Shown: positions 7,001-26,285 of the stretch, one piece after another | How positions within the stretch are numbered: the stretch's first letter is position 1 | Layout: every line of letters begins with the position of its first letter | NCBI RefSeq assembly: GCF_001730525.1 | Contig: NZ_MDFN01000019.1 | Location: forward strand, 1-64,000 | Length of the DNA stretch: 64,000 bases | Direction: 5' to 3' | From: Arcticibacter eurypsychrophilus | Lineage (GTDB): Bacteria > Bacteroidota > Bacteroidia > Sphingobacteriales > Sphingobacteriaceae | Notes under the pieces: model-generated | What the model saw: only the letters and a program-made list of their open reading frames with translations | Told to the model about the DNA's origin: nothing | Database searches by the model: none | Translations under genes and position numbers: made by a program

Positions 7001-7384
7001 ATGAAAAAAGAAATACTTATAGTTGATGATGAGATAAGTATCTTAAAGCTTTTGAATTTTGTATTAGCTAAAGACTATGATCTGATCATTAAGAATAGCG
7101 GTATTGAAGCAATTAGTTGGTTGGAAGACGGGAACACACCTGCATTAATTATATCGGATTTGCATATGCCCTATTTTGATGGTAGTTCATTCGTTCGTAA
7201 TCTAAAAGTCAGTGGTTATTATCGTGACATTCCTGTTATTCTTCTTTCGGGTGCCGAAGATCTGGACAGTGTAGCAGAAGGGATGTCACATAAGGCAGAA
7301 TCGTATATTCAAAAACCATTCAATCCAACTGCATTAAAAACAGAAATCATTAAACTACTTATAATTCCCACCTCAATTAATTAG
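7001..7384 (+). CDS. Stand-alone receiver-domain response regulator
   Basis: A 127-residue CheY-like protein made only of a receiver domain. All phosphorylation residues are present: the acidic pair D9/D10 (IVDDE), the phospho-acceptor D53 (IISDLHMP), S83 (ILLSGA) and K105 (YIQKPF). It has no output domain. Only 4 bases separate it from the sugar-phosphate transferase downstream, whose N-terminus is itself receiver-like, so a role in phospho-control of polysaccharide initiation is a reasonable inference. No histidine kinase lies next to it. Confidence 0.92.
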   Translation: MKKEILIVDDEISILKLLNFVLAKDYDLIIKNSGIEAISWLEDGNTPALIISDLHMPYFDGSSFVRNLKVSGYYRDIPVILLSGAEDLDSVAEGMSHKAESYIQKPFNPTALKTEIIKLLIIPTSIN

Positions 7385-7388
7385 CACG

Positions 7389-8474
7389 ATGGTATCTATA
7401 TCCACATTAAACTTACCGCAATCAGGCATCCATGCACGGGTATTGTATGCGGGTACAGAACTGAGAGATTATTTATCCGGTGAATTGTCCAACCAGTTCT
7501 CACTTGATTCAAATGATTTGAACATTAAAAATCTTGAAAAGTTCCTAAATGATCAGTCCTTACTCACTTTACCTGATATTCTGTTGATTGAAGCAGATTT
7601 TAAGGGTGACTGGATTAATGTTATTTCGAATATCAAGAAAAATCCTCTTTTAGGAGGTATGATTATTGTTCTATTATCTGCCTTTATCAACAAGCAGTGG
7701 AGGGCAAAGGCTATGGCACTGAAGATTCATGATTTTTATAGTTACCCTTTCCCTGTTGAAGATCTTTGTGAGCGATTGCAATTCCTGGTAAAGTTCAGGC
7801 TGATTAAACCAAAACTAACAGAGTTGTCAGGGAGGGTGGATGTTCGGTATACACTTCCGGCTTATAAAAGAATCTTTGACATTATTACTTCCGGATCTGC
7901 ATTATTAGTTTTATCTCCCTTATTTCTTGTTGTAGCCGCATGTGTTCTTTTCGAATCAAAAGGACCTGCTATATATAAAAGTAAACGGGTAGGTACAGGA
8001 TATAAGATCTTTGACTTCTATAAATTCCGATCGATGCGTACAGGTGCTGATAAAGAAATGACAATGCTATCTGCTTTAAATCAATATACCGATATCGAAA
8101 AGGGGAAATCTGCATTTATCAAACTTAAAGACGACCCTAGAATTACAAAACTGGGTAAGTTCATCCGGATGACTAGTATTGATGAGCTTCCCCAACTTTT
8201 TAATGTACTGGTTGGGGACATGTCAATGGTTGGAAATCGTCCATTGCCATTATATGAGGCGGAGATGCTTACTTCCAATGAATGGACAACACGCTTTCTT
8301 GGTCCTGCCGGACTAACCGGTTTATGGCAAATTAGCAAACGGGGGAAAGCTGACATGTCTGAACGCGAAAGAAAGAAGTTAGATAACTTTTACGCATCTA
8401 ACTATTCCTTCTGGTTAGACTTAAAAATTCTGTTAAAAACATTTCCTGCATTGTTGCAAAAAGAAAAGGTTTAA
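7389..8474 (+). CDS. Initiating sugar-phosphate transferase with receiver-like N-terminus
   Basis: The C-terminal two thirds (about residue 158 onward) is a bacterial sugar transferase of the WcaJ/WbaP/PglC superfamily, which moves a sugar-1-phosphate onto undecaprenyl phosphate to start a polysaccharide repeat. Signs are one hydrophobic segment at about 165-188, FDFYKFRSMR, TSIDELPQLFNVL, GDMSMVGNRP and GLTGLWQISKRG. Residues about 15-140 look like a degenerate receiver domain: LLIEAD with D70 at the acceptor site, LLSA with S97, and YSYPFP where the invariant lysine is replaced by Y119. This N-terminus replaces the multi-helix region of WcaJ-like enzymes. It is coupled to the upstream CheY-like gene by a 4-base gap. 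It probably starts the polysaccharide made by the cluster from 15.2 kb. Confidence 0.88.
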   Translation: MVSISTLNLPQSGIHARVLYAGTELRDYLSGELSNQFSLDSNDLNIKNLEKFLNDQSLLTLPDILLIEADFKGDWINVISNIKKNPLLGGMIIVLLSAFINKQWRAKAMALKIHDFYSYPFPVEDLCERLQFLVKFRLIKPKLTELSGRVDVRYTLPAYKRIFDIITSGSALLVLSPLFLVVAACVLFESKGPAIYKSKRVGTGYKIFDFYKFRSMRTGADKEMTMLSALNQYTDIEKGKSAFIKLKDDPRITKLGKFIRMTSIDELPQLFNVLVGDMSMVGNRPLPLYEAEMLTSNEWTTRFLGPAGLTGLWQISKRGKADMSERERKKLDNFYASNYSFWLDLKILLKTFPALLQKEKV

Positions 8475-8486
8475 TCCCTTTTCTTT

Positions 8487-10616
8487 TTACCTGTCATTAC
8501 AATTCTGTTGAGTGAGGTTCACTCCATTTATAATAACATCAAATTCAGTACGACGGTTCAGTTGCTGATTAGCTTCCGAACACACCACACCATCATAGCA
8601 GCGGTTCACCAAGCGTGTTTTACCATAATATTCTATTTTTACCCTGCTCCCGCTTATTCCTTTTGATACCAGGTAATTCTTTGCTGATCCACCTCTTCTA
8701 AGCGATAGATTACGGTTATATCCTTCAGAAGCACGACTGTCGCAATGGCTTGAAGTAATCACGGTCATTTCGGGATGTCTTTTCATCAAGGCCGCTAAAG
8801 CATCCAGTGAAGGTCTTGCATCGGAACGTATTTCATCCCTGTCAAGATCATAGTAAATGTTATCCACAGCGAAAACACGTTTTAGCGAGTCGCAGTTATT
8901 AATTACATATTGCTGAAGGCTTTCCGTTTTATTCAGCTTCATATCCAAGCGTATAACAGAATCTGTAGTAATGCCCACCGAAGTAGTAAAAACCATTTGA
9001 CTGATATATCCTAATTTTTGAGCAGTAACCTCATAATCAGTTTCCTTCTTCAGGTTATACTTAAATTCCCCTCTTGAATTAGCCGTAATGGTATCAATTC
9101 TATCTAGTGTTTTCAATAGTAACCGGCTCCCTGCGAGCGCAATGCGTGTCCTTGCATCAGTAACTAATCCTTCAAGTGAAATTCGATATGTAGCCTGACT
9201 GAAATTATAGATGTTGTCATTACCAGTTCTGTTGGAACTAAAATAGCCACTTTTACCATCATCGGACCTGATCAAGCCAAAATCATCTTTAGATGAGTTG
9301 ATAGGCATACCCAAATTTCTTGGGTTATACTGAGGTTTCATATCCTTCAACATCACTTCAAAAACATCCAAACCTCCTAAACCAGCATGTCCGGTTGACG
9401 AGAAGAATAAGGTGCCATCTTTGGAAAGAGAAGAAAATTGTTCGTTTCCCTCCGTATTAATCTGTTTTCCCAGATTTATAGGTCTTGTCCATTGTGTCCC
9501 TGAGCGAACGGAATAGTATAGATCCGTTCCACCAAAACCTCCGGGCATATCGGATGAAAAAATGAGGATGTTACCATCTGCGGTCAATGCAGGATGACCT
9601 GTTGAATATTCATTGCTGTTGTATGGGAATTCAGTTATCTTGTCCAGATTCTTTCCTGTGGCCAGATACAACTTCAACTTATTAATGCCGGTCTTGCTCT
9701 TTTTTGCGGTCCCTTTATAATAATTATTTCGGGTAAAAATAAGTGAGCCATCAGGGAATACAGCAGCAGGACCTTCATGAAATCGGGTATTTACATTTCC
9801 CTTCAAGAGGTGGATATTACGATTTGGATGCATCATTGTTCCTGATGAATCCAAATAAAAGGAAGAATTGTATTGGCCTAGCGTCCTGCTATCATTACTG
9901 GTAGGTGCAGTATCGTCATCATTGTATACACTTGAATTTTTAGAATCGGCCCTATTACTGCCGATTGCATCAGAATTTACATCACCTATGTCTGATAGCT
10001 TTGCAATGTAAAATAAGTTTGTATAAGGCGTATTATCCCAGGGAAAAACCTTCTTAATGGTTGCACCCATTGCTCTGTTGCTATTAAAGAGAAGACCCTG
10101 TTTGTAGTATACAGGTGAATATTCCGAAGCCGAAGTATTTAGGTTTGTTAGGGCTACTTTCCAGAACTCACTGTTTGGCGATAATGAACCCGTGTTTGAG
10201 CGGGCAAAAGCAGAAGCTCTTTTATCTGATGGAACCATACTTAAATAGGCGCGATACCAGTTTTCCGATCTTTCATATTGCTGCGCATTAGCAAGAGCCT
10301 CTGCATAGTACAATACCCATTCCTGTTTCAATGGTTTTTGTTTACTCAGTTTCTCATACCAAGTTAAAGCTTCCGGATATTTTTTTGTTTGCCGGTAGCT
10401 AAATGCAATCATTTCCAGTGCTTGAACATTGCCGGAATCAATAGCTAAGACCTTTTCTAAATTGGCGATGGCGTTCAAATATTTTAAAGATTGAAAATCA
10501 GAAGTTGCCTGCAGCATCAATTTATCCCGAGAGGATTGAGCAAAAGCAGTGTTGATCACGAAAGTTGTGAGAATATAAAAACAAATCAGATAACGCATGG
10601 ATAACTTCATAATCAT
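8487..10616 (-). CDS. PorE-like OmpA-family lipid/peptidoglycan anchor (TPR, PD40, OmpA)
   Basis: A 709-residue exported protein. After the signal peptide (ending about AFAQ) come TPR repeats at about residues 30-130, a WD40-like PD40 propeller at about 165-480 (for example GHPALTADGNILIFSSD and GGLDVFEVM), a carboxypeptidase-like beta domain at about 490-560 and a C-terminal OmpA peptidoglycan-binding domain (FAVDNIYYDLDRDEIR, then SSHCDSRAS and YNRNLSLRR). This order is that of PorE of the type IX secretion system. The start overlaps the porP stop by one base (TAATG), so the two are translationally coupled. A second in-frame ATG at 10610 is equally plausible. It is the last gene of the three-gene unit. 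Many Bacteroidota have several paralogous copies, so this may be an accessory rather than core component. Confidence 0.85.
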   Translation of the reverse strand: MIMKLSMRYLICFYILTTFVINTAFAQSSRDKLMLQATSDFQSLKYLNAIANLEKVLAIDSGNVQALEMIAFSYRQTKKYPEALTWYEKLSKQKPLKQEWVLYYAEALANAQQYERSENWYRAYLSMVPSDKRASAFARSNTGSLSPNSEFWKVALTNLNTSASEYSPVYYKQGLLFNSNRAMGATIKKVFPWDNTPYTNLFYIAKLSDIGDVNSDAIGSNRADSKNSSVYNDDDTAPTSNDSRTLGQYNSSFYLDSSGTMMHPNRNIHLLKGNVNTRFHEGPAAVFPDGSLIFTRNNYYKGTAKKSKTGINKLKLYLATGKNLDKITEFPYNSNEYSTGHPALTADGNILIFSSDMPGGFGGTDLYYSVRSGTQWTRPINLGKQINTEGNEQFSSLSKDGTLFFSSTGHAGLGGLDVFEVMLKDMKPQYNPRNLGMPINSSKDDFGLIRSDDGKSGYFSSNRTGNDNIYNFSQATYRISLEGLVTDARTRIALAGSRLLLKTLDRIDTITANSRGEFKYNLKKETDYEVTAQKLGYISQMVFTTSVGITTDSVIRLDMKLNKTESLQQYVINNCDSLKRVFAVDNIYYDLDRDEIRSDARPSLDALAALMKRHPEMTVITSSHCDSRASEGYNRNLSLRRGGSAKNYLVSKGISGSRVKIEYYGKTRLVNRCYDGVVCSEANQQLNRRTEFDVIINGVNLTQQNCNDR

Positions 10617-11551
10617 TAAAAATATCTTGGAGATAAAATTTTACCACGTTCAAAGCCAAACTCATACCTGATCATAATTTCATGACTGCCCGTATTGAAG
10701 TTTCTTAAACGGGTCACACTATGATCATAACTATAGCCTATTCGGATTTGAGGACTAGCCTGAATCTCAAGAATACCTGCCACGTCGGCACTTGTGCGGT
10801 ATTGTGCTCCTACAGCAACGACATCTTTTATCCAGAGCATGGCATTCAGATCCGCTTCCAAAGGAGCCCCTTTAACACCCTTGATTAACAGAGAAGGCTT
10901 CAGCTTTAAATTATCATCCACTTTGAACACATAACCTGTAGCAAAGAAAAGATGCATGTTTTTTAAACTCCCGCCGGTAGTATCATCCGCTGCCTCATAT
11001 GCTGTAATTCGGGAGTTCAATAAGTCCTGAGCAGACAGGCCTATATAAAAGCGATCAGAGTTATAATACACACCCGTTCCGAAATTGAATAAGAATTTAT
11101 TGATGTTCTCTGAAAATGCAGGATCGTACGCACCGGAGTTTCCCAGGTCAACACCAGTATAATTAGCCTGGTATTGAACCGCACTTCCCTGAATCCCAAA
11201 AGCCAGGGAGCCCTGAGCCATTCTGATCCTGTATGCATAACTTAGTGCAGCACCCGTTGTCGAAGTAATGCCCAGTTTATCACTTAATAGCTGCAAACCC
11301 AGACCCACTTTTTTATTATTAAATGGAGCGTCAATAGTGAAAGATGTTGTTTTGGGAGCGCCTTCTAAGCCAGACCACTGACTGCGGTGTAATGCAGTGG
11401 CCGAAACCACATTTCTGCTTCCTGCATAAGCAGGATTTATTGCCAGTGTGTTAAACATATATTGCGTGTACATCGCGTTTTGCTGCGCATCCACAGAGAT
11501 TGCACATCCAAGCAAGCATAGCGCCCCTACTAATTTTTTAAGCCTCTTCAT
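10616..11551 (-). CDS. PorP/SprF family type IX secretion membrane protein
   Basis: A 311-residue outer-membrane barrel protein with a signal peptide ending at about VDAQ. The family N-terminal signature is clear: MYTQYMFNTLAINPAYAGS, followed by LHRSQWSGLEGAP. In gliding and T9SS biology PorP/SprF-type proteins pair with a large secreted substrate bearing the type B C-terminal domain, which is exactly the gene directly upstream; the ATG follows that gene's stop codon with no gap. Partnership with that specific substrate is inferred from order. Confidence 0.9.
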   Translation of the reverse strand: MKRLKKLVGALCLLGCAISVDAQQNAMYTQYMFNTLAINPAYAGSRNVVSATALHRSQWSGLEGAPKTTSFTIDAPFNNKKVGLGLQLLSDKLGITSTTGAALSYAYRIRMAQGSLAFGIQGSAVQYQANYTGVDLGNSGAYDPAFSENINKFLFNFGTGVYYNSDRFYIGLSAQDLLNSRITAYEAADDTTGGSLKNMHLFFATGYVFKVDDNLKLKPSLLIKGVKGAPLEADLNAMLWIKDVVAVGAQYRTSADVAGILEIQASPQIRIGYSYDHSVTRLRNFNTGSHEIMIRYEFGFERGKILSPRYF

Positions 11552-14500
11552 TTATCTGTTAATTGTGAGATATCCCGCTTTCTTTTCCTTATTATCCAAT
11601 ACAACGATGTAATAGTAGGTGCCCACAGGAACATCCTCACCAATATGAATTCCTTCCGTACACTTTCCATTCCATGTGTTCTGATATTCTTTCGACCTGA
11701 AAACCCTGTTTCCCCAGCGGTTAAAGATTTCAATATCTACCTTTTTACCAAGTGTATTTTGAATAATCAGATTATCATTAATCCCGTCGTTATTGGGAGA
11801 AAAACCACCAGGAATAAATAGGGGTTTATTTTCCAGTGTAAACGGAGTGGGATCAGAAGGAGTCGGATCTCCTGAGATCTGAGAATCCGGTGACAATCCG
11901 TTAGTTGACTGATCTGCAGTTTCTGCACCATCAAGTACGGAAACCCCTTTTACTAAAGCCCTGTTCAAAAAAGCAGTCTCATCTGTTGTCACCAAAACAA
12001 CCAGATCAACCACTACGGTTTCTTTATATAGAGGTTGAATGGAGCTGGTGTTTAAAAGCAGTTCCTGATCGGTGATACCATTAAAACTACTATTGATGAG
12101 TAAACTTCCTGAAGCGGCTATGCCGGATACCTTAAATTGATTTCCTGCAAGAGCAGTCAGCAAATTATCCGTTAGACTTAAACGGTCAATACGGTAATCA
12201 CCATAGTTGACAATTGTAAAAGTAAACTTGATAGCATAGCTTCCATCCAGGTTTTTAGAAATTGATGTCAGCGCTTTAGCTAAACCTATTTTAGCAGGAA
12301 TATTAACCGTGATCGTCACTTTTCCTGGCACGGATTGGTTGCCTGCGCCGTCTGTAACAATATATTCAAATTCATCCGGACCACTATATCCAGGTTCAGG
12401 AGTATAAATTAGTTTACCAGTAATTGGATCAGTGGTTAACGTACCATGAGTTGGCCGAGTCGTGATTGTGACAAAACTACCTGTTGGTAAAGGAATATTG
12501 ATAATAGCACTACCATTTGAAGGGACGTTCACCTTTATGGCCGGAGCAATCGGGGGTAGTCCTGTAATCGTAACCGTAACGTTAATAGGTGTAGATTGCA
12601 GTCCTTCGGGAGTAATGAGCGTATACGTAAATACATCAGTTCCGGTATAACCTGCTACCGGTGTGTAAGTAATGATTCCTGTCCCACCAACCACAATGCT
12701 TCCATGCAGAGGATTCGTTTCCGGCTGTACAGTAGTTCCTGTTTTACTCAGATCGTTATCTTTAACCGTAATAGTTACTGGGGTATCACTAGCTGTCGTA
12801 GCCGCATCTGCACTGCCTATTGGGATGACGTCGATAAACACAGTGATAGGGTCAGACTTTAGATTTTGAAGATTTTGTATGACATAGGTAAACGAATCTT
12901 TACCACTGAAGCCGGAAATAGGCGTGTAGGTGAATGTTCCATCCGTTTCCAATACAACTGTACCATGGAGTGGATTCGATAGTTTAAAAACAGTTGCTCC
13001 TGCACGTCCTCTATCATTATCAAGTACTCGTATTAAGACAGGAATGTTCGAATATGTAAACGCGTTATCATTTGAGCCCTCAGGTTTAATATTTACTGCG
13101 ATAGTAACCGTAGCAATGTTTGATTCCAAGGCAAAATTATCCTTAACTGTATACACAAAAGAATCATAGCCGCTGTATGCATCATTAGGACGATAATAGA
13201 TCAATCCTGTAACCGGGTCAACCAGGAGAACACCATGTAAAGGATTAGACTTAATGCTAATACTGCTTTTATCGATCGTAATGTTGCCATCTTCATCTGT
13301 ATCGTTCGCCAATACGGGAATGTAGATAAATGTATTCAAAGCGGTAGTTATTGTATCGTTAACAGCCACAGGTCTTCTGTTTACTGTTAATTTTATATCA
13401 TCCGATAATTCACATCCTCCAGGCGACAAAATAGTCCAACGAAATACATAAACGCCACCTGTCAATTTATTAACCAAAGAATTATAAATTTTAGGACTTA
13501 ATATGGTAGCTACTTCAGGGCCAGAGAGCTGGGTCCAGGTTCCCGTATTTGTGCCCGGAGTACTTCCCTGTAAAATATAGCTACCTGCACCCGTTATAAT
13601 ATTAATCAATGAATCTTTTCCTGCATTAGGCTGCACAGGTATGGCTACATAATTCAACGTTATTATTCCAGGATTAGAACTTATTCCAAAATTGTCTTTA
13701 ACAGTATAATAGCTAGTTACTGTGCCTATTAAGGAAGATATAGGAGTGAAAGATACAGTTCCATCGCTATTCAGAGAAAAAGTACCCTGATTAGCTATAG
13801 TATAGGTGGTTTGGATCCCAACAGTTGAAGGATCCAGATCTATGGAAACTTTATTGATAATACCCCCAATGTTTTTAGTTGCATCATTCGCAGTGACATC
13901 TACTGTTGCCACTTTGCCTGAACACAAAGTTAAGTTATCAGGATTAGCTAAAGGCTCTACTAATTCATTCTTGCTGATTACATCAATAAATACATTTCTA
14001 ATTTCATGAAAATTGGTGCTTGCACCAGTTGAGGAGGATAATCCATAACTTAAATTCTGTGGAGCCAGTTCAGGATAGTAATAATTGTCAATTACGGTTG
14101 TGATTTGCGGAGTAGATCCCCCTCTTGTAATGCGTACAGTAACATTAAATCCTCCGTTTACGTTTGGAACCAGATTAATAAAAACTTTTCGGTAACCGGT
14201 AGAGCTGGCATCAGGACTACGTGTGGTACCTCCATCTGTTAAAGCAAAGGTTAAATCTGCTGTTTTTTTACTTGTCAGAAACTGATAATTACCAACTGTA
14301 AGTGCAACCCCATCTCCTTTTCCTCGTAAAGTAACTGAACCTGGTCGCATTCCTGATCCACCCTGCCTTCCTTCTGTCGGATTGGAGAAATTACCAAATT
14401 CATCTAATCCAATTCCAATGTATCCTTTTGATACACCCGGGGACACAGGAGTTGTTGTTGTAATCTGAGCATATCCTAAGGATCCACCAAAACCACCAAT

Positions 14501-14878
14501 TACAAAAGGGCTGGCGGTAGCATCAAATAAAAATAGGCAGATCCCATCAGCACCTGTTCCACCATAGATAAAATATTCGAATTCAACTGAAAGACCTTTT
14601 GAAGAAGGGAAACTTGCTGTACTGTATATATATCCTTTTTGATTTTTAGTATTATTAGTTAAACGCAGATAACCATTCCCTGCGGCGTCAACACTAGCCC
14701 CTCCTATTCCAGTTCCAGGAGCTGCAGTTAGAAATGCATTAGGAGCTCCACCGAAATTGATACCCGGAGCTGTGCTATTTTTAAAGCTTTCGATGTATGG
14801 AAATTGTGCTTTTGCAGGTTGCGCTAACAGAAGCCCAAACGCAATGATTGCCATAAATAACGGGTAATTTTTTTTCAC
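11552..14878 (-). CDS. Large secreted adhesin-like protein with type B T9SS C-terminal domain
   Basis: A 1108-residue cell-surface protein. A signal peptide (cut near PAKAQ) is followed by a legume-lectin/concanavalin-like domain at about 25-300 (FEYFIYGGTGADGICLF). Next is an Ig-like segment, then four related units of about 90 residues at about 500-870, each with a N-P-L-H-G (or R-P-T-H-G) turn, a Y-x-P strand and a D-x-F-x-Y strand, like tandem cadherin-like domains. A DUF11-like repeat (LAKALTSISKNLDGSY) precedes the C-terminal gliding-type domain (FIPGGFSPNNDGINDNL, then IEIFNRWGNRVF and PVGTYYYIV). It is probably exported by T9SS and anchored or released via the adjacent PorP. The ligand is unknown. 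It is first in a tightly packed three-gene unit. Confidence 0.88.
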   Translation of the reverse strand: MKKNYPLFMAIIAFGLLLAQPAKAQFPYIESFKNSTAPGINFGGAPNAFLTAAPGTGIGGASVDAAGNGYLRLTNNTKNQKGYIYSTASFPSSKGLSVEFEYFIYGGTGADGICLFLFDATASPFVIGGFGGSLGYAQITTTTPVSPGVSKGYIGIGLDEFGNFSNPTEGRQGGSGMRPGSVTLRGKGDGVALTVGNYQFLTSKKTADLTFALTDGGTTRSPDASSTGYRKVFINLVPNVNGGFNVTVRITRGGSTPQITTVIDNYYYPELAPQNLSYGLSSSTGASTNFHEIRNVFIDVISKNELVEPLANPDNLTLCSGKVATVDVTANDATKNIGGIINKVSIDLDPSTVGIQTTYTIANQGTFSLNSDGTVSFTPISSLIGTVTSYYTVKDNFGISSNPGIITLNYVAIPVQPNAGKDSLINIITGAGSYILQGSTPGTNTGTWTQLSGPEVATILSPKIYNSLVNKLTGGVYVFRWTILSPGGCELSDDIKLTVNRRPVAVNDTITTALNTFIYIPVLANDTDEDGNITIDKSSISIKSNPLHGVLLVDPVTGLIYYRPNDAYSGYDSFVYTVKDNFALESNIATVTIAVNIKPEGSNDNAFTYSNIPVLIRVLDNDRGRAGATVFKLSNPLHGTVVLETDGTFTYTPISGFSGKDSFTYVIQNLQNLKSDPITVFIDVIPIGSADAATTASDTPVTITVKDNDLSKTGTTVQPETNPLHGSIVVGGTGIITYTPVAGYTGTDVFTYTLITPEGLQSTPINVTVTITGLPPIAPAIKVNVPSNGSAIINIPLPTGSFVTITTRPTHGTLTTDPITGKLIYTPEPGYSGPDEFEYIVTDGAGNQSVPGKVTITVNIPAKIGLAKALTSISKNLDGSYAIKFTFTIVNYGDYRIDRLSLTDNLLTALAGNQFKVSGIAASGSLLINSSFNGITDQELLLNTSSIQPLYKETVVVDLVVLVTTDETAFLNRALVKGVSVLDGAETADQSTNGLSPDSQISGDPTPSDPTPFTLENKPLFIPGGFSPNNDGINDNLIIQNTLGKKVDIEIFNRWGNRVFRSKEYQNTWNGKCTEGIHIGEDVPVGTYYYIVVLDNKEKKAGYLTINR

Positions 14879-15230: not shown

Positions 15231-15914
15231 ATGATTATTAAAAAATCATCGATCATCATATTAGTACAAATGCTTCTAATCTGTAACCTTTTGAAAGGAC
15301 AGGAAACCATTATGGCAGATTATTCCGCGGTATATGTGGAGAAACTGGTGGCCGTAGCAAAGGAGAATAATCCTAATGGAAAAGTGTTTGAACACCAGGT
15401 TAACATCGCTAAAAATATGCTGAACGGAGAAAAAACATCTTGGGTAAGTTCATTCACTTTTTCATATTTAGCACGGTCAAACAGTAGTTCAGTCGATATT
15501 GTGAATCCGCAATTATTGACAGGATATCAGTTTGGAGTATCCCTCAATCCCGGTACACTGTTTAAAATACCCTTTAATATTAAAACTGCGAAAGAGCAGG
15601 TAAAAATATCTTATTTAACTAAAGAGGCTTATGATCTTCAATTAGAGAGTGATGTAAAAAGCCGGTATCTGCTTTATTTACAAAGTCTTTCCGGCCTTCG
15701 TTTACAAAACAAAATTGTATTGGATGCTGAAAGTATTTTCAAGGATATGAAGATCAAATATGAGAGGAGTGAAATAACATTTTTGGATTATAATAATGCA
15801 TCTATGTCGCTATCAACTGCATATCTTACCCGTATACAAGCAGAAACAAGTTTAATAGCAGCAAAGGTTACATTGGAAGCATTACTGGCAAAGAAGCTGG
15901 AAGAAATAAAATAA
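15231..15914 (+). CDS. Half-length TolC-like outer-membrane protein
   Basis: A 227-residue exported protein with a signal peptide ending at about LKGQ. The body has the helix-strand-helix look of one half of a TolC/OEP protein: heptad-rich helices such as AVAKENNPNGKVFEHQVNIAK, beta strands (FTFSYLARS, GYQFGVSLNPG) and a C-terminal helix typical of the family (YLTRIQAETSLIAAKVTLEALL). TolC proteins are usually about 420-480 residues, twice this length. It is the first gene of the EPS operon and its stop abuts the Wzz-like start with no gap, so it may supply the outer-membrane step; no Wza-type exporter is present in the window. A truncated copy is less likely because the reading frame is clean and ends normally. 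Confidence 0.65.
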   Translation: MIIKKSSIIILVQMLLICNLLKGQETIMADYSAVYVEKLVAVAKENNPNGKVFEHQVNIAKNMLNGEKTSWVSSFTFSYLARSNSSSVDIVNPQLLTGYQFGVSLNPGTLFKIPFNIKTAKEQVKISYLTKEAYDLQLESDVKSRYLLYLQSLSGLRLQNKIVLDAESIFKDMKIKYERSEITFLDYNNASMSLSTAYLTRIQAETSLIAAKVTLEALLAKKLEEIK

Positions 15915-18095
15915 ATGGAAGAAATTAATAGATTTTTAAGGCTGCTCAAGAAACATCGTCTCATTCTGATCATCGTTCCTGCCATTACAGTAATCATTAC
16001 ATACTTCCTGGTTAGAAATTTGCCTAATTCATACGTTTCGCAAACGCAAATAGCAACGGGTATTGTGGACAATACACAATCTAGTTTAACTGGAGAAGCC
16101 ACTGGCAAAAGCTGGAGTGAAGTAAGTCAGGCATTTGCAAATCTGATGGAAGTAATGCGGTTGAAAAAGATTCTTGACCAGGTATCTTATAAATTGATCA
16201 TTCATGAAATAAGTGCGAAAAAGTCATTCAGACCTATTCCTACCGAATTACAAGTTTATAATCAGCAAGAGCTTAAAAAAGTATTGAGTACCTTTCAGGA
16301 CAAGTATAATAAAACGCAAGGGTTAAATCTCTGGGAAAATGAACAAGTCAAACTTTATAATGTTCTTCGTGCCATTGGCTATGACAGTGAATCAATAAAG
16401 AATAATGTACGGATCAACCGGGTTGGAGACAGTGACTTTATTATGGTAGAAGCTGACACTGAAAATCCAGAGCTATCAGCTTTTATTGTTAATTCGCTTA
16501 CCGAAGAGTTTATTAAGTATTATACTTTTCTGATCAAGCAAAATCAGAGAAAAGCAAATACTTTTCTGGATAAAATGCTCGTTGAAAAAAGAGCCGCCAT
16601 GAATTCTAATGTGAATGCATTGCGTGATTATAAAATCAAAAACAGAGTTTTAAATCTGGAGGAGCAGTCCAGTCAGCTTTACGCTCAAATAATTACTTAT
16701 AATGATCAAAAGCAAAGCATTTTAAAGGATATTGCATCAAATACAGGAGCTGTAAATGAAATTGATGCCCGATTTGATCCAAAGGATCGTAAATATTTAG
16801 AATCTACATTAACAAGCATAAACCAGCGCTTATTATCCACAAAGGAAGAATTACGATCATTATACGATTTATATATTCAGAACGACTTTGAACCCAGTTA
16901 TAAAGAATCAATAGATTCGGTACAACGCATTTTGACCTCTCAGATCAATCAGTCATCAGATCAATATATCAATAGTCCATTAGCTGCTAAACAGGCGTTA
17001 ATTCAACAAAAACTACAGTTAGAAGTTCAACTTGATCTTTCCAGGTATAGTATGAATTCCATTGAAAACGAACTATTGAGCTTGAACGCGCAATTTGATA
17101 AAATGGTTCCGCATGAGGCCCAAGTTCAATCATTAGAAAGAGAGGTTGATATTTCAAGCAAAGAATACCTGGATGCTTTAGAAAAGTTCAATCAGAGTAG
17201 TATGGAATCGGGATTCGCTATTAAAATTAATCAGGTTCAGATTGCAATGCCCGGATTACCGCAGCCTTCAAAGAAAATGCTGTTGGTCATCATAAGTGGA
17301 ATTGTAACTTTTATATTTTGTCTCGTTGTATTATTTATTCTTTACTTTCTTGATGATACCATTAGTTCGCCGAAGGAGCTTGCAAATAAAACAGGTGTGG
17401 CAGTGTTAGGCGGACTGAACACCATACAAGGGTCAGTAGTGGATCTCAATGAAATATGGAATAGTTCTTCCTCTGATAGTATAAACCAGTTCAAGGACCA
17501 GTTGCGTTCTATACGCTTTGAAATAGACAAAGAGATCAAAAACGGTGTGATTGCCATAACGAGTATGAAGGAGTTCGAAGGAAAGACACTTTTAGCCCTT
17601 AGTTTGGCACATGCCTGGAAGATGACGAATAAAAAGGTATTAATTATTGATGGGAATTTTACTAATCCTGGAATCAGCAAATCATTAGATACTTCCATGT
17701 ATATTGAGGATTATTTAAATGGGACAACAGAACTGAGTCAACTCCAAACGGACCAATCTGTCACCGTTTTGGCTAACAAAGGCGCAGATACTTCTCCCTT
17801 AGAAATAGCAGATTCAGAAACGATTAAATTAAAAATTAATCAATTAAAAGAACTCTTTGATCTGATCATTATAGAAACAGCACCACTATCTAAAATGAAT
17901 CAAAGTAAAGAATGGCTCATTTTTGCAGGTAATGTTATAGCTGTTTTTGAAGCAAGACAAAGTTTGAATGATGAAAAATTGAATGATATAGCCTACCTGA
18001 CATCTCTTGGTGATCAATTTACAGGTTGGGTATTTAACAAACAAGAGAGTTCCTTATCTACTCGAAAGAGAATTAAAAGTAGCAAGAACGGATGA
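15915..18095 (+). CDS. Wzz/BY-kinase-like polysaccharide chain-length protein with altered ATP motifs
   Basis: A 726-residue inner-membrane protein of the polysaccharide co-polymerase 2a type. A Wzz domain lies at the N-terminus with TM1 at about 16-32 (LILIIVPAITVIITYFLV), followed by a long periplasmic coiled coil, TM2 at about 455-480 and a cytoplasmic CpsD/tyrosine-kinase-like domain from about 530. The P-loop is reduced to EFEGKT (556-558 GKT). Walker A' reads IIDGN (579-581), with N and T in place of the second D and the R. Walker B has E654 (LIIIETAP) instead of D. There is no C-terminal tyrosine cluster. It may bind nucleotide and steer assembly without being an active tyrosine kinase. 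The ATGA overlap with the next gene shows translational coupling. Confidence 0.85.
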   Translation: MEEINRFLRLLKKHRLILIIVPAITVIITYFLVRNLPNSYVSQTQIATGIVDNTQSSLTGEATGKSWSEVSQAFANLMEVMRLKKILDQVSYKLIIHEISAKKSFRPIPTELQVYNQQELKKVLSTFQDKYNKTQGLNLWENEQVKLYNVLRAIGYDSESIKNNVRINRVGDSDFIMVEADTENPELSAFIVNSLTEEFIKYYTFLIKQNQRKANTFLDKMLVEKRAAMNSNVNALRDYKIKNRVLNLEEQSSQLYAQIITYNDQKQSILKDIASNTGAVNEIDARFDPKDRKYLESTLTSINQRLLSTKEELRSLYDLYIQNDFEPSYKESIDSVQRILTSQINQSSDQYINSPLAAKQALIQQKLQLEVQLDLSRYSMNSIENELLSLNAQFDKMVPHEAQVQSLEREVDISSKEYLDALEKFNQSSMESGFAIKINQVQIAMPGLPQPSKKMLLVIISGIVTFIFCLVVLFILYFLDDTISSPKELANKTGVAVLGGLNTIQGSVVDLNEIWNSSSSDSINQFKDQLRSIRFEIDKEIKNGVIAITSMKEFEGKTLLALSLAHAWKMTNKKVLIIDGNFTNPGISKSLDTSMYIEDYLNGTTELSQLQTDQSVTVLANKGADTSPLEIADSETIKLKINQLKELFDLIIIETAPLSKMNQSKEWLIFAGNVIAVFEARQSLNDEKLNDIAYLTSLGDQFTGWVFNKQESSLSTRKRIKSSKNG

Positions 18096-19288
18096 GTATG
18101 ATAAGTACAATGTGGATATTCTTTCAGGTATTAGTTGGGTATAACCTGATCTTGCCGCTTTTGCTGTATATTATATGGATGAACCGTAAGGCCTCTTCCA
18201 TTATAGCAAACCAATCGCCAAACAGATCGGAAGCTGATTATGCTATTATCATCACTGCCTATGAACAAACTCAAACGCTCTGTGCTGTTGTAACCTCTAT
18301 TCTTAAGTTAAACTATTCAAATTATATCATTTACATCGTAGCTGATAAATGTGATATTTCCACTTTACGGTTTGATGATCCGAGAGTTATCCTATTAAGA
18401 CCGGTTGATACGCTTGCTAGTAATGTGAAATCACACTTTTATGCTATTGATCGTTTTGTTCGTAAACACGACCGCTTAACCATAATCGACAGCGACAATC
18501 TTGTTCATCCTGAATATTTAAATCAACTAAATACCTGTTTTGATCAGGGATTTCAAGCGGTACAAGGTCTTAGGGAAGCTAAAAATTTGGATACTACCTA
18601 TTCATGCCTGGATGCCGCCCGTGACATCTACTATCATTTTTATGATGGAAAGGTTTTATTCGGTTTAGGGTCTTCTGCTACACTATCCGGATCTGGGATG
18701 GCTTTTACCGTTGATCTTTATCGTGACTGTCTGGAGAATAAAGAGGTAAGCGGAGCAGGCTTTGATAAAGTATTGCAATCTATAATTGTGTTGAAAGATA
18801 TTCGAATTGCTTTTACGGAAATGGCTATTGTATATGATGAAAAGACATCCCGTTCAGATCAGCTCGTTCAGCAACGTTCCAGATGGATTAATACCTGGTT
18901 TAAGTATTTCAGCTTAGGTTTTACCATAATGGGAAAAGGTATTCAGAATTTCAGTTCCAATCAGTTTACTTTCGGTTTAGTACTACTCCGGCCGCCTTTG
19001 TTTTTATTTATTTTAGGATCGGGAATTTGCTTTATCTGTGACTTATGGTTTAGTCCTGTGTCATCTTTAATATGGCTGGTAGCCTTTATCCTTTTTGTTT
19101 TAGGCTTTTATATAGCATTACAAAAGTCATCAACTGATAAGCGTATCTACAATTCACTTGTGAATATACCCAACTTTATGTTCTACCAGATTGTGTCTTT
19201 AATGAAAAGCAGGAAAGCAAACAAGACCTCTGTAGCAACAAAACACTATCATACTCATTCTATTGACGATATAAATGACGTAAAATGA
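18092..19288 (+). CDS. Membrane-associated family 2 glycosyltransferase
   Basis: A 398-residue GT2 (GT-A fold) enzyme with an N-terminal membrane segment at about 8-28 and further segments at about 295-355. The catalytic domain has YAIIITAYEQ, the metal-binding DxD as IIDSDN, the acceptor segment GSGMAF and the Q-Q-R-S-R-W motif, reminiscent of the QxxRW motif of processive GT2 enzymes. It probably adds a sugar to a lipid-linked precursor at the inner membrane. Its first codon overlaps the Wzz-like gene (ATGA) and its last codon overlaps the following small gene (ATGA). Confidence 0.85.
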   Translation: MSMISTMWIFFQVLVGYNLILPLLLYIIWMNRKASSIIANQSPNRSEADYAIIITAYEQTQTLCAVVTSILKLNYSNYIIYIVADKCDISTLRFDDPRVILLRPVDTLASNVKSHFYAIDRFVRKHDRLTIIDSDNLVHPEYLNQLNTCFDQGFQAVQGLREAKNLDTTYSCLDAARDIYYHFYDGKVLFGLGSSATLSGSGMAFTVDLYRDCLENKEVSGAGFDKVLQSIIVLKDIRIAFTEMAIVYDEKTSRSDQLVQQRSRWINTWFKYFSLGFTIMGKGIQNFSSNQFTFGLVLLRPPLFLFILGSGICFICDLWFSPVSSLIWLVAFILFVLGFYIALQKSSTDKRIYNSLVNIPNFMFYQIVSLMKSRKANKTSVATKHYHTHSIDDINDVK

Positions 19289-19425
19289 GAGTTGACCCAG
19301 TAATTCCAGATCAAAAAAAAGTTAAAAAAAGAATTTTAAAACGGCAGAATATCTTGAGGAAAGTAGCCATTGCGTTTGTTGCAGCGATCATTTATTTCAT
19401 CTTCGTCAAAATAATGATTCTCTAA
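19285..19425 (+). CDS. 46-residue single-pass membrane protein in the EPS operon
   Basis: A small gene linked to both neighbours by codon overlap: ATG 19285 overlaps the stop of the GT2 gene (ATGA), and its TAA overlaps the start of the Wzy-like gene (TAATG). The product has a strongly basic N-terminal half (residues about 10-26, rich in K and R) and one hydrophobic segment at about 27-41 (VAIAFVAAIIYFIFV). By the positive-inside rule the N-terminus would be cytoplasmic. I recognise no family. The double coupling makes chance unlikely; it may be an assembly or stability factor for the polymerase or the transferase beside it. Confidence 0.75.
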   Translation: MRVDPVIPDQKKVKKRILKRQNILRKVAIAFVAAIIYFIFVKIMIL

Positions 19426-20939
19426 TGGAAAACATTAAGCTGAACTTGAAAAAAATAAAGGGAAGTTGGAGAGATGAAAAACTTAGCGTTTATCTTAAGA
19501 GAATTTTTATAGTTGAAAAACTGACTAATATTCCTGGACTTATTTTTTTGTCTTTGTTTGCTATTGCTTTTTCCTTTGTAATGGATAAATCCGGGATTAC
19601 TGGTGTTTCCCTGATATTAATTGTTATAATTGGGCTGCCTACTATTTTCTGTATCGTTAGGTTTCCTCAAATTGGTATCATTATAATTCTTATCGGCGCG
19701 TATTTCCTCATGTGGATCTATGGATTCATATCAAGCTTTCCTCTAGGAACGGTAATGGATGGCATTGAGGTGCTTCTAATCTTAGGTTTTTTTATTATTC
19801 AAAAAAAGAAATCTGATTGGAGTTTATTTAAAGAGCCGATTGGTGTTATCGTTTTAATTTGGGTAGGCTATAATATTATGCAAATCGGCAATCCAGCTGC
19901 AGAATCACGACTGGCTTGGTTATATACCATCCGTGCAGTTGCAGCTGTCATGCTCATGTACTTCATATTCAGTTATAATATACGAAGTTTGCCTTTTTTG
20001 AAAATAATACTAAAACTATGGTTATTGCTCGCGTTATTTGGTGCTTTTTATGCCTTTAAGCAGGAGTTTATTGGTTTTTCAGCATCAGAGGAAAGAGCGT
20101 TGTCAGATCCTCGTGTAAAAGCATTATACTTTATAAACGGACATTGGAGGAAGTTTTCCATTTTCTCAGATCCAGTTGCATTTGCCTACAACATGGTTGC
20201 GCCTGCTCTATTTTGTATCAGTATGCTTTTCAGTCCTCTTAAAACTTGGAAAAAATTAATACTAAGTATAATGGCTTGTATTTTTCTTCAAGCCATGTTA
20301 TTTTCAGGAACCCGTGGTGCTTACGTTCTGGTTCCTGTTGCACTTGTTCTATTAGTTATTGTTAATTTGAATAGAAATGTAATCATAGTCAGTAGCATAG
20401 GAGCAGTACTTTTTGCTTTACTGATATTTACCCCTAGCTCGAGCCCAAGTATAAGACGATTTCAATCTGCTTTCCAACCATCCGAAGATGCATCCTTTAA
20501 TGTACGAAAGGAAAATCAAAAAAGAATACAACCATTTATACAAACACACCCCTTAGGTGGAGGACTCGGGGCAACGGGTGTATGGGGTACACGATTTTCT
20601 CCTCATTCCATGCTTGCTAAATTTCCTCCTGATAGTGGATATGTTCGTGCAGCGGTAGAAACCGGATCAATAGGATTATTCCTGATATGCACACTGATGG
20701 TAATTATTATCAAAACGGGTATAAATAATTTTTTTTCTATAAAGGATCTGGAACTCAGGTCTTACTGTCTGGCTATGACCATTATTCTGTTTGCATTTGC
20801 TGTTGGGAATTATCCGCAGGAAGCTATTGTACAATTTCCTTCCAATATCTATTTCTATTTATTTACAGCGATAATAACGGTAACTAAAAGGCTGGATATC
20901 GAGAAACAAAAAAAGAACCTTTCCCCAAATTTTTCGTAA
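19425..20939 (+). CDS. O-antigen polymerase/ligase-like membrane protein (Wzy-type)
   Basis: A 504-residue inner-membrane protein with about eleven hydrophobic segments and a large extracytoplasmic loop near residues 340-410. That loop contains the Wzy_C-like region with FSGTRGAY before it and HSMLAKFPPDSGYVRAAVE, followed by a helix with ETGSIGLFL. Proteins of this fold either polymerise repeat units (Wzy) or ligate them (WaaL); the position next to Wzz-like and Wzx-like genes favours polymerase. It is coupled to the upstream 46-residue gene by TAATG. Confidence 0.82.
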   Translation: MENIKLNLKKIKGSWRDEKLSVYLKRIFIVEKLTNIPGLIFLSLFAIAFSFVMDKSGITGVSLILIVIIGLPTIFCIVRFPQIGIIIILIGAYFLMWIYGFISSFPLGTVMDGIEVLLILGFFIIQKKKSDWSLFKEPIGVIVLIWVGYNIMQIGNPAAESRLAWLYTIRAVAAVMLMYFIFSYNIRSLPFLKIILKLWLLLALFGAFYAFKQEFIGFSASEERALSDPRVKALYFINGHWRKFSIFSDPVAFAYNMVAPALFCISMLFSPLKTWKKLILSIMACIFLQAMLFSGTRGAYVLVPVALVLLVIVNLNRNVIIVSSIGAVLFALLIFTPSSSPSIRRFQSAFQPSEDASFNVRKENQKRIQPFIQTHPLGGGLGATGVWGTRFSPHSMLAKFPPDSGYVRAAVETGSIGLFLICTLMVIIIKTGINNFFSIKDLELRSYCLAMTIILFAFAVGNYPQEAIVQFPSNIYFYLFTAIITVTKRLDIEKQKKNLSPNFS

Positions 20940-20950
20940 AGAGTAAAATT

Positions 20951-21805
20951 ATGAATATACCCTATTGGATAGAAAAAGTTAATTTACCATATACTGATTA
21001 TGCGCAAATTCCTCAGGATATATTTGATCAGGTAAACCAAAAACTAGATCATATTCAAGGAGCTGATCCTCTCATTACCATTCTTATTGCTGCCTATAAT
21101 GAAGAAGTTAATATTCTACGTTGTTTGTACTCGCTTTCTCGTATGCAAACCAGCATTCCTTTAGAAATAATTGTGATCAATAATAATTCATCGGACCATA
21201 CCCAAGTAACACTAGACAAACTGCATGTTAAGAAGTTATTTCAGGAAATACAGGGTTGTGGGCCATCACGTCAATTGGGACAGGAGCAAGCAAAAGGAAA
21301 GTATATTCTTCTGGCGGATGCAGATTGTCTATATCCTGATACCTGGGTAGATGAGATGATGAAAGTATTGCAAAAACCAGGTACTGCATGTGTTTATGGC
21401 CGATATTCCTTTATTCCCGAGCTTGGTTATCCAAGGTGGCAACTTTTTTTGCTAGAGAAAATGAAAGACGTCATAGCCGGATATCGTCATATTAAACGCC
21501 CTTACTTGAATGCTTATGGAATAAGTATGGGATATGTAAAAGAATTTGGTTTAAGGGCAGGATTTATTATGGTTAATGTTAGAGGAGATGATGGTCGTTT
21601 AGCTTTTGACATGATGCAATATGGTAAAATTGAACAAGTTAAATCAGCTAAAGCCAGACCATGGACAGGTCCTCGTACACTAGAAAGAGACGGTAGTTTT
21701 ACTAACGCATTAAAAAATAGAGTGCTACGTGAAATTAAAAGATCATTCAGTATGCTCAAAGGAGAAAAGGCCCATGATACCAAAACATCTTCTAACGAGG
21801 ATTAA
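20951..21805 (+). CDS. Family 2 glycosyltransferase
   Basis: A 284-residue GT-A fold enzyme. It has the nucleotide-binding start ITILIAAYNEEVNILRCLYSL, the NNNSSDHT strand turn and the DxD metal motif as LLADADCLYPD. There is no clear membrane segment, so it is probably peripheral. It follows the Wzy-like gene by 11 bases in the same operon. The donor and linkage are not predictable. Its stop overlaps by 4 bases the stop of the minus-strand GT4 gene. Confidence 0.88.
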   Translation: MNIPYWIEKVNLPYTDYAQIPQDIFDQVNQKLDHIQGADPLITILIAAYNEEVNILRCLYSLSRMQTSIPLEIIVINNNSSDHTQVTLDKLHVKKLFQEIQGCGPSRQLGQEQAKGKYILLADADCLYPDTWVDEMMKVLQKPGTACVYGRYSFIPELGYPRWQLFLLEKMKDVIAGYRHIKRPYLNAYGISMGYVKEFGLRAGFIMVNVRGDDGRLAFDMMQYGKIEQVKSAKARPWTGPRTLERDGSFTNALKNRVLREIKRSFSMLKGEKAHDTKTSSNED

Positions 21806-23004
21806 ACTGGTATGTTTTTGTCTTTAGCCACTTGATTAATATATTTCAGAAAGATCTTTACCACTGAAGGCCAGCTATAGGTATGTGCAAACTTGATTCT
21901 TTCCTGTTGTAAATTAGGACTATCCAGTTTCATTGCATTTTCAATAGCTTCAATGTATTCATCAGCTGTAATAGCAAGATAGGTATATGCGCTAAAAACC
22001 TCTTTCATAGTATTGGTAGCGGTAGCCACAACAGGTCTCCCCATCGCTAAATATTCAATTATTTTTAATGGGAAATTTCCGATAGTAATTTCATTAACTA
22101 ATTGAGGATTGATGCATACATCAAAATATCTAACATAGGCAGGAATTAAATTAGTATGCTTCTTTTTGAAAAATGTGATGTTACTTATAGTATGTAAATC
22201 ACTTTTTATAAAATTTTCGTCTTCCTCCCCTATAAATACAAAATCCCAGTCAGCCCTTTTTCTGGCAATAGTTCCTATGAGATTAATATTGATGCGCATC
22301 GAATTCAATGCTCCCACATAACCAACTACAGGCCTTTTGAATGTTTTAAGTTCTTCTGGCTTTTCCCATGACCTGGTATGATCAAAAACTTCCAGATCGG
22401 CACCGTTTCCTATATAAAAACTGTTTGGATTATAAGTCAAAGCTCTCTTGGTGAAATCTAGTGAATTGCATACCACTGCATCACTCTTTTTCATAAGTAA
22501 AGGCTCAAGTGTAGGACCATGTCTTTTCCAATAACCAAATCCAATAGTATAGTCCCGATCCAGATACACATAAAGAGCAGGTCTTAATAGCTCTTTCAAA
22601 TAAAAGCTACGGAACATATCCTTATCATTTACAAGAATAAAGGATTCGAAACCTAACTCTTGTATGGCCTCTTTTATACAAGAGGAAAATCTTTTGTTAT
22701 TTATCCGGTTAAATAAAGAAAACACTGCGGTAAAAGGAATCCAATTAATAGACTCTATTACTTTTTCGGGACTTAATACTGAAAGATGTTCAGTTACTTT
22801 AACTAAACCCACTTTTTTATTCTTTATATCTTGAATATGAGATTGAGTAAAGATGTCATTCGTTTTGGAATACCAAGTTCGGCGGTCAATTGGCGGATTA
22901 ACATATAAAACACGATGCTCTTTAGAGAGTTCCTTGGCAAGACTGGTTGATGTCGATTCCCGATCTGTATTGATACGTTGAAGACTAACGAAGACGAAGT
23001 TCAT
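21802..23004 (-). CDS. Family 4 type glycosyltransferase (GT-B)
   Basis: A 400-residue GT-B fold enzyme. The N-terminal domain begins MNFVFVSLQRINTDRES and the C-terminal domain has the GT4 pattern VGYVGALNS, WDFVFIGEED, then the donor-binding stretch FPLKIIEYLAMGRPVVAT in which the E-x-x-A-M-G-x-P element is typical. It probably uses a nucleotide-activated hexose; the acceptor is unknown. It forms a minus-strand pair with the following GT2, whose end is 18 bases upstream of this start. Confidence 0.85.
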   Translation of the reverse strand: MNFVFVSLQRINTDRESTSTSLAKELSKEHRVLYVNPPIDRRTWYSKTNDIFTQSHIQDIKNKKVGLVKVTEHLSVLSPEKVIESINWIPFTAVFSLFNRINNKRFSSCIKEAIQELGFESFILVNDKDMFRSFYLKELLRPALYVYLDRDYTIGFGYWKRHGPTLEPLLMKKSDAVVCNSLDFTKRALTYNPNSFYIGNGADLEVFDHTRSWEKPEELKTFKRPVVGYVGALNSMRININLIGTIARKRADWDFVFIGEEDENFIKSDLHTISNITFFKKKHTNLIPAYVRYFDVCINPQLVNEITIGNFPLKIIEYLAMGRPVVATATNTMKEVFSAYTYLAITADEYIEAIENAMKLDSPNLQQERIKFAHTYSWPSVVKIFLKYINQVAKDKNIPV

Positions 23005-23022
23005 TTTAATTAGGATAAAAAA

Positions 23023-23793
23023 TTAATACTTAGCAAATAATAGATCAAAATTGTACCTGACCTGTCTGTATGCATATCGAATAGCAAAAATTAAGGGATT
23101 CTTGCTTGTGGTCCAGCTTTTTCTACTCATTGTACTCGGTTCTGCTTCCGAATTATCTTGAGTAAACAAGGTTTTAAAGGCGTTAAAAAACAATCCTTTC
23201 CCCTTATTTTGAATAAAGGAAATACACATTCTATATTCAGTACGATCTCCTTTTATACCTTCCGTATACCGCCCGACCTTTTTAAAGAAGTCGCTTCTCC
23301 TTAAATGAGGATGATCGCTATAGTAATAGATTTTGCCGTAATCGGTATACCAGGGTTTGATCATCATTTCGGAATAGCCTTTTTTGAAGTCTTTCAGGTA
23401 AGGATAAGGAGAGTAAGCATAAAATCTGATGATATCAAAGTCGCTTCTTTCTTTCATGATATCCAAAGCATCTTTAAAATGTACTGAAAAAATTTCTGTT
23501 GGAACAAAATCTTCCTGCACATATAAGGTATAAGGCGTTAATACGGCATCCTGGCCTTTATTTAAATTATTACCAAGACCCTTATTTACAGGAGTTGTTA
23601 CAAGTCTGAAAGATAGTTCGGTCTGAAGTTTCTTGAGATACTCCTGATGTTCTGCAGAACTGCCATCATCAGAAACTACAACATCTTCAAAAATACAATC
23701 TAATTTTTGGAAACTTCTAAGAAGACGCTCTAAAGAGTTGCTCCGGTTATAATGGGTAATTAATAAAGTTACACCTGGAAATTTATTAGTCAT
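23023..23793 (-). CDS. Family 2 glycosyltransferase
   Basis: A 256-residue GT-A enzyme. The N-terminus VTLLITHYNRSNSLERLLRSF and VVVSDDGSSAEHQEYL are typical GT2 elements, with LYVQEDFVPTE in the place of the usual DxD region. Length is normal for a single-domain enzyme. It is first in a two-gene minus-strand unit with the GT4 gene. Substrates cannot be read from the sequence. Confidence 0.82.
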   Translation of the reverse strand: MTNKFPGVTLLITHYNRSNSLERLLRSFQKLDCIFEDVVVSDDGSSAEHQEYLKKLQTELSFRLVTTPVNKGLGNNLNKGQDAVLTPYTLYVQEDFVPTEIFSVHFKDALDIMKERSDFDIIRFYAYSPYPYLKDFKKGYSEMMIKPWYTDYGKIYYYSDHPHLRRSDFFKKVGRYTEGIKGDRTEYRMCISFIQNKGKGLFFNAFKTLFTQDNSEAEPSTMSRKSWTTSKNPLIFAIRYAYRQVRYNFDLLFAKY

Positions 23794-26136: not shown

Positions 26137-26285
26137 AGGTTAAATATCATAAAATAAGCTCGTCTAACTTGAATTATTTTTTTTACTTTTCCATACTACA
26201 TGCACAACCTCCTTTTAAAATGGATCCAATTGATTTTTATGAAACATTTTTTCAAAAAAACCATAAAAGGGTATATAAATAAGTA

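Follow-up and report, generated by a model that had tools for sequence, protein, structure and literature searches.

In Myxococcus xanthus, the phosphorylated single-domain response regulator (RR) EpsW stimulates the phosphoglycosyl transferase (PGT) EpsZ post-translationally, a control supported by proximity labelling, heterologous expression and modelling (PMC12802240). In the model, the regulator contacts both the DUF and the catalytic domain. The discussion of that paper, citing O'Toole 2021, adds that receiver domains can occur on small PGTs and that regulation of PGTs by receivers may exist in other systems (PMC12802240). Control of this kind bears on two wider questions, namely how bacteria divide the limited undecaprenyl-phosphate carrier between the cell wall and surface polymers, and by what means Bacteroidota adjust their surface polysaccharides quickly. 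Receiver domains fused to small monotopic PGTs were reportedly described by O'Toole, Imperiali and Allen in PNAS in 2021. The terms 'receiver' and 'response regulator' were absent from the available part of the main text of the eLife paper on WbaP, and a search of the open-licence literature by title or abstract start found no publication on an RR-PGT gene pair of Bacteroidota. Both the principle and the fusion thus have antecedents in the literature; the wide pairing in Bacteroidota, the lost phosphorylation site and the phosphorelay context were not found in print.

The locus described here lies in the window, which is the whole 64,000-nucleotide stretch of DNA that was analysed. The sequence-only reading of this DNA knew of no named system of its kind, a statement overtaken by EpsW/EpsZ, which is a close precedent (PMC12802240). 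In both systems a single-domain RR goes together with the PGT that initiates a Wzx/Wzy pathway, the pairing in our case being seen in gene context. The architectures are different: EpsZ has a transmembrane (TM) bundle and a DUF, whereas the Bacteroidota enzyme combines a small-PGT core with an apparently dead receiver. Additionally, the genes of the Bacteroidota pair are adjacent, unlike those of EpsW/EpsZ, and where a candidate source of the signal is linked to them, it is a hybrid kinase that has an Hpt domain, in contrast to the Dif chemosensory kinase of EpsW/EpsZ. The combination of a receiver with a small PGT is shared with the O'Toole 2021 fusions, as cited in PMC12802240. The features of the pair are as follows.

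7001-7384, plus strand: single-domain response regulator, 127 aa; codon of D53 at 7157-7159.
7389-8474, plus strand: pseudo-receiver fused to a monotopic PGT, 361 aa, from the open reading frame, PF02397 and the structure model.
7431-7805, plus strand: putative pseudo-receiver domain, residues 15-139, from alignments, the AlphaFold2 model and structure searches.
7590-7592, plus strand: codon of E68, at the phospho-acceptor position.
7596-7598, plus strand: codon of D70, two residues past the acceptor position.
7743-7745, plus strand: codon of Y119, at the position of the conserved lysine.
7866-8456, plus strand: Bac_transf catalytic domain, residues 160-356 (PF02397, E 9.2e-59).

The PGT reading frame begins 4 bp after the end of the RR gene, and the sequence-only reading had placed both genes and this gap correctly. 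It had also called the first product a canonical phosphorylatable receiver with D53 and K105, which agrees with our results: PF00072 was its sole Pfam match (E 2.8e-18), without an output domain, and the phosphorylation residues were complete (D9, D10, D53, S83 and K105). D53 and K105 were present in 80 of 80 family RR sequences, the window's RR included. We found a subfamily signature consisting of W40, G44-N45-x-P47, S71-G72 and K105-P-F-N-P109. In the fetched loci, W40 occurred in 111/119 partner RRs versus 1/44 other receivers, P109 in 119/119 versus 10/44, and S83 in 118/119 versus 8/44. The acid pair, the aspartate and the lysine were all retained in 52 of 53 representative partner RRs; in the exception (locus L089, minus strand, positions 1968-2372 of the locus), serine replaced the phospho-aspartate. 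Since another RR-PGT pair of the same genome (G080), at L186, has its residues intact, the L089 pair is possibly a decaying duplicate.

As evident from its PF02397 domain, its DX12P re-entrant helix (D164-P177) and its catalytic dyad (D265-E266), the second product is a monotopic PGT; by pattern, the DX12P motif and the DE dyad were found in 130 of 132 unique PGTs of the clade. The closest named match came from Arcticibacter svalbardensis, of a genus in Sphingobacteriaceae, with 95% identity. The window enzyme shares the PF02397 catalytic family and both motifs with Salmonella WbaP and E. coli WcaJ, and differs from them in that neither a TM bundle nor a DUF was seen and the NCBIfam cut-offs were not reached (TIGR03023 for WcaJ, 191.9 versus 410.75). 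Hydrophobic windows occurred only from residue 162 onward; no 19-residue window ahead of it exceeded 1.6, and no four-TM bundle like that of the large PGTs was found before the catalytic domain. The earlier label 'WcaJ-type' is therefore apt for the catalytic domain and not for the rest of the protein.

The sequence-only reading had suggested that the N-terminus of the enzyme resembles a second receiver, and structure prediction of the window PGT gave a receiver fold. The AlphaFold2 model, built from 41 family sequences, revealed the strand-helix order of a receiver with block-mean pLDDT values of 74-90 over residues 21-130; the catalytic half had low confidence, so that the mutual placement of the two domains is not fixed by the model. 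In Foldseek, 50 of the 50 rows listed were response-regulator chains, with a probability of 1.00 and a TM-score by target of up to 0.83. VIA-align superposed the model on RR468 (3dgf) with a Z-score of 16.6 and an rmsd of 1.7 Å over 116 residues; one of its 50 rows (8oyp, Z 14.9) was titled as a ubiquitin protease. Pfam left the receiver in the window PGT unrecognised (Response_reg E 0.12, 12.9 bits versus a cut-off of 30.2). Of 28 representative proteins scanned singly with Pfam, 12 had Response_reg at E 0.1 or better, the window's own protein not among them. A profile of 28 N-termini, run against PDB sequences, gave six matches at E 1e-5 or better, all of them receivers and PleD among them.

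A decayed cytoplasmic DUF (PF13727-type) of the large PGTs would occupy the same position in the chain and would also be an α/β domain. The comparison of profiles weighs heavily against it, as the N-terminal profile matched the profile of the partner RR family at 72.8% (E 3.2e-5) versus 0.2% for the DUF regions of 11 large PGTs, and the structure matches were response regulators. The decayed DUF is rejected for the window family by this profile comparison, and we regard it as extremely improbable. Large PGTs were absent among the matches listed by Foldseek and VIA-align, which proves nothing taken alone. The N-terminus of the window family is thus predicted to fold as a receiver. This prediction covers the window family; the Bacteroidales-type N-domains are without profile support, as those of Bacteroides finegoldii, Phocaeicola massiliensis, Parabacteroides distasonis and one more (L180, L182, L183 and L196) scored 0.6% against the RR profile, which is no match. 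The RRs at these four loci have asparagine at position 71 instead of serine, hinting at either a co-varying contact or a different N-domain.

Three alignments (the joint alignment of RRs and N-termini, the profile against PleD and the profile-profile comparison with the RR) placed E68 at the phospho-acceptor position. D70, which had been taken for the retained phospho-aspartate, is not at this position; the replacement of the conserved lysine by Y119 was borne out by the joint alignment and the profile against PleD. The Mg-binding acidic pair is missing, with G22-T23 in its place, and all three marks of a phosphorylatable receiver (acidic pair, aspartate and lysine) are consequently missing from the fused domain. 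Because E68 rather than D70 lies at the acceptor position, the acidic pair is missing and Y119 replaces the lysine, the fused domain of the window is, judged by its residues, a pseudo-receiver. In 81 family sequences, the window included, E68 was found in 81, D70 in 79, P120 in 81 and Y119 in 57. Across the phylum, 54 representative fused domains, for the most diverged of which the residue alignments are uncertain, had the acid pair in 2 cases, aspartate in 12, glutamate in 22 and lysine in 5; none of the 54 combined acid pair, aspartate and lysine. Since the fused domain in the window appears to have no phosphorylation site, only the separate RR would be left to receive the phosphate.

The RR was unusually conserved at W40, GN44-45, P47 and S71, sites that, by receiver topology, we take to lie off the α4-β5-α5 face. 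Among the helices of the pseudo-receiver, α5 was the most conserved and α1 the least. The conservation of α5 would fit use of the canonical α4-β5-α5 dimer face, and that of these RR sites would fit it less well.

We found the RR gene directly upstream of the PGT gene in 79 of the 80 close loci (the best 80 of 264 relatives by PGT similarity). The exception, Hufsiella ginkgonis (L014), carries a family RR at another place in the genome, which scored 214.5 bits as opposed to 79.7 for the next receiver. In the best-match loci among 395 genomes of the class, the RR was adjoining in 30 of 30, one of which is the window itself. When the unique PGTs with the N-domain were pooled (total length of at least 340 aa; 21 duplicate rows removed, repeats of the window included), the RR was directly upstream in 119 of 120, many of which are close relatives, so that the counts are not independent; the earlier reading had named a lack of adjacency in relatives as a refutation, and the adjacency was borne out. 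The N-domain itself was seen by profile in 119/120, the profile being partly built from the same sequences, and by the RR profile alone in 61/120. The distance from the RR stop codon to the PGT start, taken as the first possible codon, was at most 50 bp in 112 of the 119 pairs. Outside the best 80 loci, the RR was adjacent in 41 of 41, the window counted among them, and these loci carried 15 family labels of the genome collection in addition to records of a Flammeovirgaceae strain, B. finegoldii, P. massiliensis and P. distasonis. As controls, the best 30 PF02397 loci of the class (28 proteins of 448-499 aa and two of 383 and 402 aa) had no RR in the fetched stretch, in which about 600-900 bp upstream was in view, and none was found in the fetched stretches of the three PGT paralogues of the window's own genome. 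The gene pair is real, conserved and adjacent in many Bacteroidota. Simple synteny of close relatives was ruled out by the varied neighbour contexts and the class-wide loci.

The distribution of the clade was scattered, with matches in about a tenth of the sampled genomes: 48 of 395 genomes of the class at E 1e-60 or better and, in the phylum survey, 32 of 296 at 1e-70 or better, PGTs with and without the N-domain taken together. No match at E 1e-60 came from three genomes in the family to which the window belongs. In a tblastn search of plasmids, the only survey beyond Bacteroidota, at least 80% of the query was covered in 2 of 946 matching records. The records of L180 (NZ_OY725918.1), L182 (OY725990.1) and L183 (NZ_OY725779.1) are labelled plasmids, and the B. 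finegoldii record among them bears trp and other housekeeping genes; these records may be pieces of chromosome, and mobility of the pair is therefore not to be inferred from them.

The polysaccharide genes of the window lie further downstream.

15231-18095, plus strand: TolC/OEP-family protein (227 aa, 15231-15914; PF02321, E 4.3e-22) and Wzc-like protein (726 aa).
18092-28678, strand not specified: rest of the polysaccharide cluster, by Pfam, including further glycosyltransferases and the next three genes.
18092-19288: GT2 gene, by Pfam.
19425-20939: Wzy_C gene, by Pfam.
26286-27716: Wzx-type flippase gene, by Pfam.

The Wzc-like protein of the window matched Wzz (E 5.4e-5) and AAA_31 (E 7.3e-5), both under their cut-offs; in relatives, 'Wzc-like' denotes similarity to this gene, and the P. 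distasonis protein is without a Pfam match. In the best 80 loci, a short TolC-family gene and a Wzc-like gene directly followed the pair in 62, with a Wzy-type gene as well in 61; in these 62 loci the pair stands first in an exopolysaccharide operon. OmpA/PorP genes on the other strand followed the pair in 10 loci, as in the window, where the TolC-Wzc-GT-Wzy genes begin at 15231, beyond the OmpA/PorP/gliding block; neither arrangement was present in 8 loci, two of which are at contig ends. The block that parts the pair from the polysaccharide genes in the window (8487-14878, minus strand) comprises OmpA/PD40, PorP/SprF (type IX secretion) and large repeat-protein genes. The order RR-PGT-TolC-Wzc-like-Wzy was also found in P. 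distasonis and Hymenobacter. In two loci (L179 and L180), the pair was accompanied by glycosyltransferases, and no TolC/Wzc-like gene was seen in the stretch. The TolC/OEP-family gene was short throughout: 227 aa in the window, which we take to be about half of a classical TolC, about 240-307 aa in the extended loci (e.g. L183:5856-6641) and 273 aa in the annotated Hymenobacter. Because this gene is short and Pfam scans of 22 window genes gave no Wza/OPX match, export through a half-TolC is possible.

The conserved neighbours suggest control of slime at its first chemical step in Bacteroidota. We consider it probable that exopolysaccharide synthesis is gated at its first committed step by a phosphorelay that ends on this dedicated single-domain RR. 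The phosphate would reach D53 of the RR via an Hpt domain from a hybrid kinase, whose gene is linked to the pair in some lineages only, and the phosphorylated RR would bind the PGT encoded beside it, where the enzyme's own non-phosphorylatable receiver could be the dock or a relay. Binding would change the activity or the oligomeric state of the PGT, most likely switching it on by analogy with EpsW/EpsZ, and the PGT would supply the Wzx/Wzy-type cluster at 15231-28678 with a sugar linked to undecaprenyl diphosphate. The observations behind this proposal are the residues of both domains, the fold predicted for the N-terminus, the uneven conservation of RR and fused domain, the pairing of the genes and the operon contexts; binding, phosphorylation, the direction of the effect and the sugar specificity belong to the proposal itself. 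If true, it would carry the principle of EpsW/EpsZ, for which support has so far come from myxobacteria, into a second phylum, where the architecture is different. The pair is a compact candidate for fast post-translational control of the first step in environmental and gut Bacteroidota, the gut habitat of some pair-bearing species being presumed from their names.

A rather different target for the RR is suggested by the members of the clade without the N-domain (12 unique PGTs of 227-284 aa). The RR was found upstream in 5 of these 12 (Hymenobacter, three of one genus and one more) and was missing in the other seven (Aureispira and six others), one of which (L201) has a gene for a weakly similar receiver on the other strand. 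The five RRs beside domain-less PGTs retained KPFNP in 5/5, W40 in 4/5 and the full W-GN-P set in 3/5, those three being of one genus. Since the signature is retained beside domain-less PGTs, it is not explained by the pseudo-receiver, and its role may lie with the kinase or with the catalytic domain; the retention of KPFNP and W40 also means that the pseudo-receiver need not be the partner of the RR. The RR could accordingly act on the catalytic domain or the membrane-proximal face of the PGT, with the fused domain a later accessory, e.g. for dimerisation or tethering. We regard this as unlikely, although the regulator in the EpsW model touches both the DUF and the catalytic domain (PMC12802240). 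In 43 non-redundant RR/PGT pairs (43 or 48 depending on gap treatment), the distances of the RR correlated about equally with the two domains of the PGT, the partial correlations being 0.48 for the N-terminus given the catalytic domain and 0.44 for the catalytic domain given the N-terminus; the correlation was significant and did not tell the two domains apart. What counts against the catalytic domain as target is that the RR accompanied 119/120 PGTs with the N-domain versus 5/12 without it (Fisher p 5e-8, relatedness uncorrected) and that S71 tracks the N-domain. This residue, in the α3-β4 loop of the RR, was present in 114/119 RRs beside domain-bearing PGTs versus 0/5 beside domain-less ones; outside the close family it occurred in 31/36, and serine was found in 5/44 other receivers. 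The apparent tracking is only a lead, because three of the five domain-less cases share one genus.

The same five RRs weaken a strict receiver-receiver switch. The sequence-only reading had proposed that a receiver/pseudo-receiver dimer switches the first step directly, without transcription; the direct switch is the best-supported reading and has an experimental precedent in EpsW/EpsZ (PMC12802240), whereas the dimer does not stand as its necessary mode. A fuller version, in which a hybrid kinase with Hpt acts through an RR of the W40/KPFNP type on glycan initiation, by way of a heterodimer of live RR and dead receiver and in Bacteroidota of many families, is put forward only tentatively. The acceptor aspartate, fixed as glutamate (E68) in the window family, would then mimic the phosphorylated state by nature and may keep the docking face in its active shape. 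Our confidence in this heterodimer, low from the outset, was reduced slightly because the profile comparison did not identify the Bacteroidales-type N-domains as receivers.

Single-domain RRs can be phosphate sinks or act elsewhere. The pair could thus be co-transcribed while the RR serves the Wzc-like protein, transcription or the removal of phosphate as a sink, the role of the fused domain being structural alone. Against it, the pair is retained next to differing operons and in the two loci with glycosyltransferases and no TolC/Wzc-like gene seen (L179 and L180), and we judge it improbable.

For the favoured reading, in which a phosphorelay gates the PGT, a possible source of the signal was found among 12 extended loci, hand-chosen rather than random. 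In 4 of the 12 (L215-L217 and L220), a hybrid kinase with a C-terminal Hpt domain was encoded directly upstream of the RR; L215-L217 belong to one genus and have a PGT without the N-domain, and L220 has a PGT with it. The Hpt domain was identified by Pfam in L215, L220 and a partial read of the L216 protein, and by phmmer labels only in L217. No kinase was linked to the pair in the window, and none of the four Hpt matches in its genome lay on the contig of the pair. A two-component regulator-propeller histidine kinase of 1054 aa is encoded at the end of the polysaccharide cluster away from the pair (28915-32079), and nothing ties it to the RR. In two further extended loci (L222 and L223), kinases without an Hpt label were located further away, and a kinase-like reading frame was found in 6 of the 80 close loci, with flanks of up to about 6 kb. 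In Hymenobacter, an Hpt gene lies three genes upstream.
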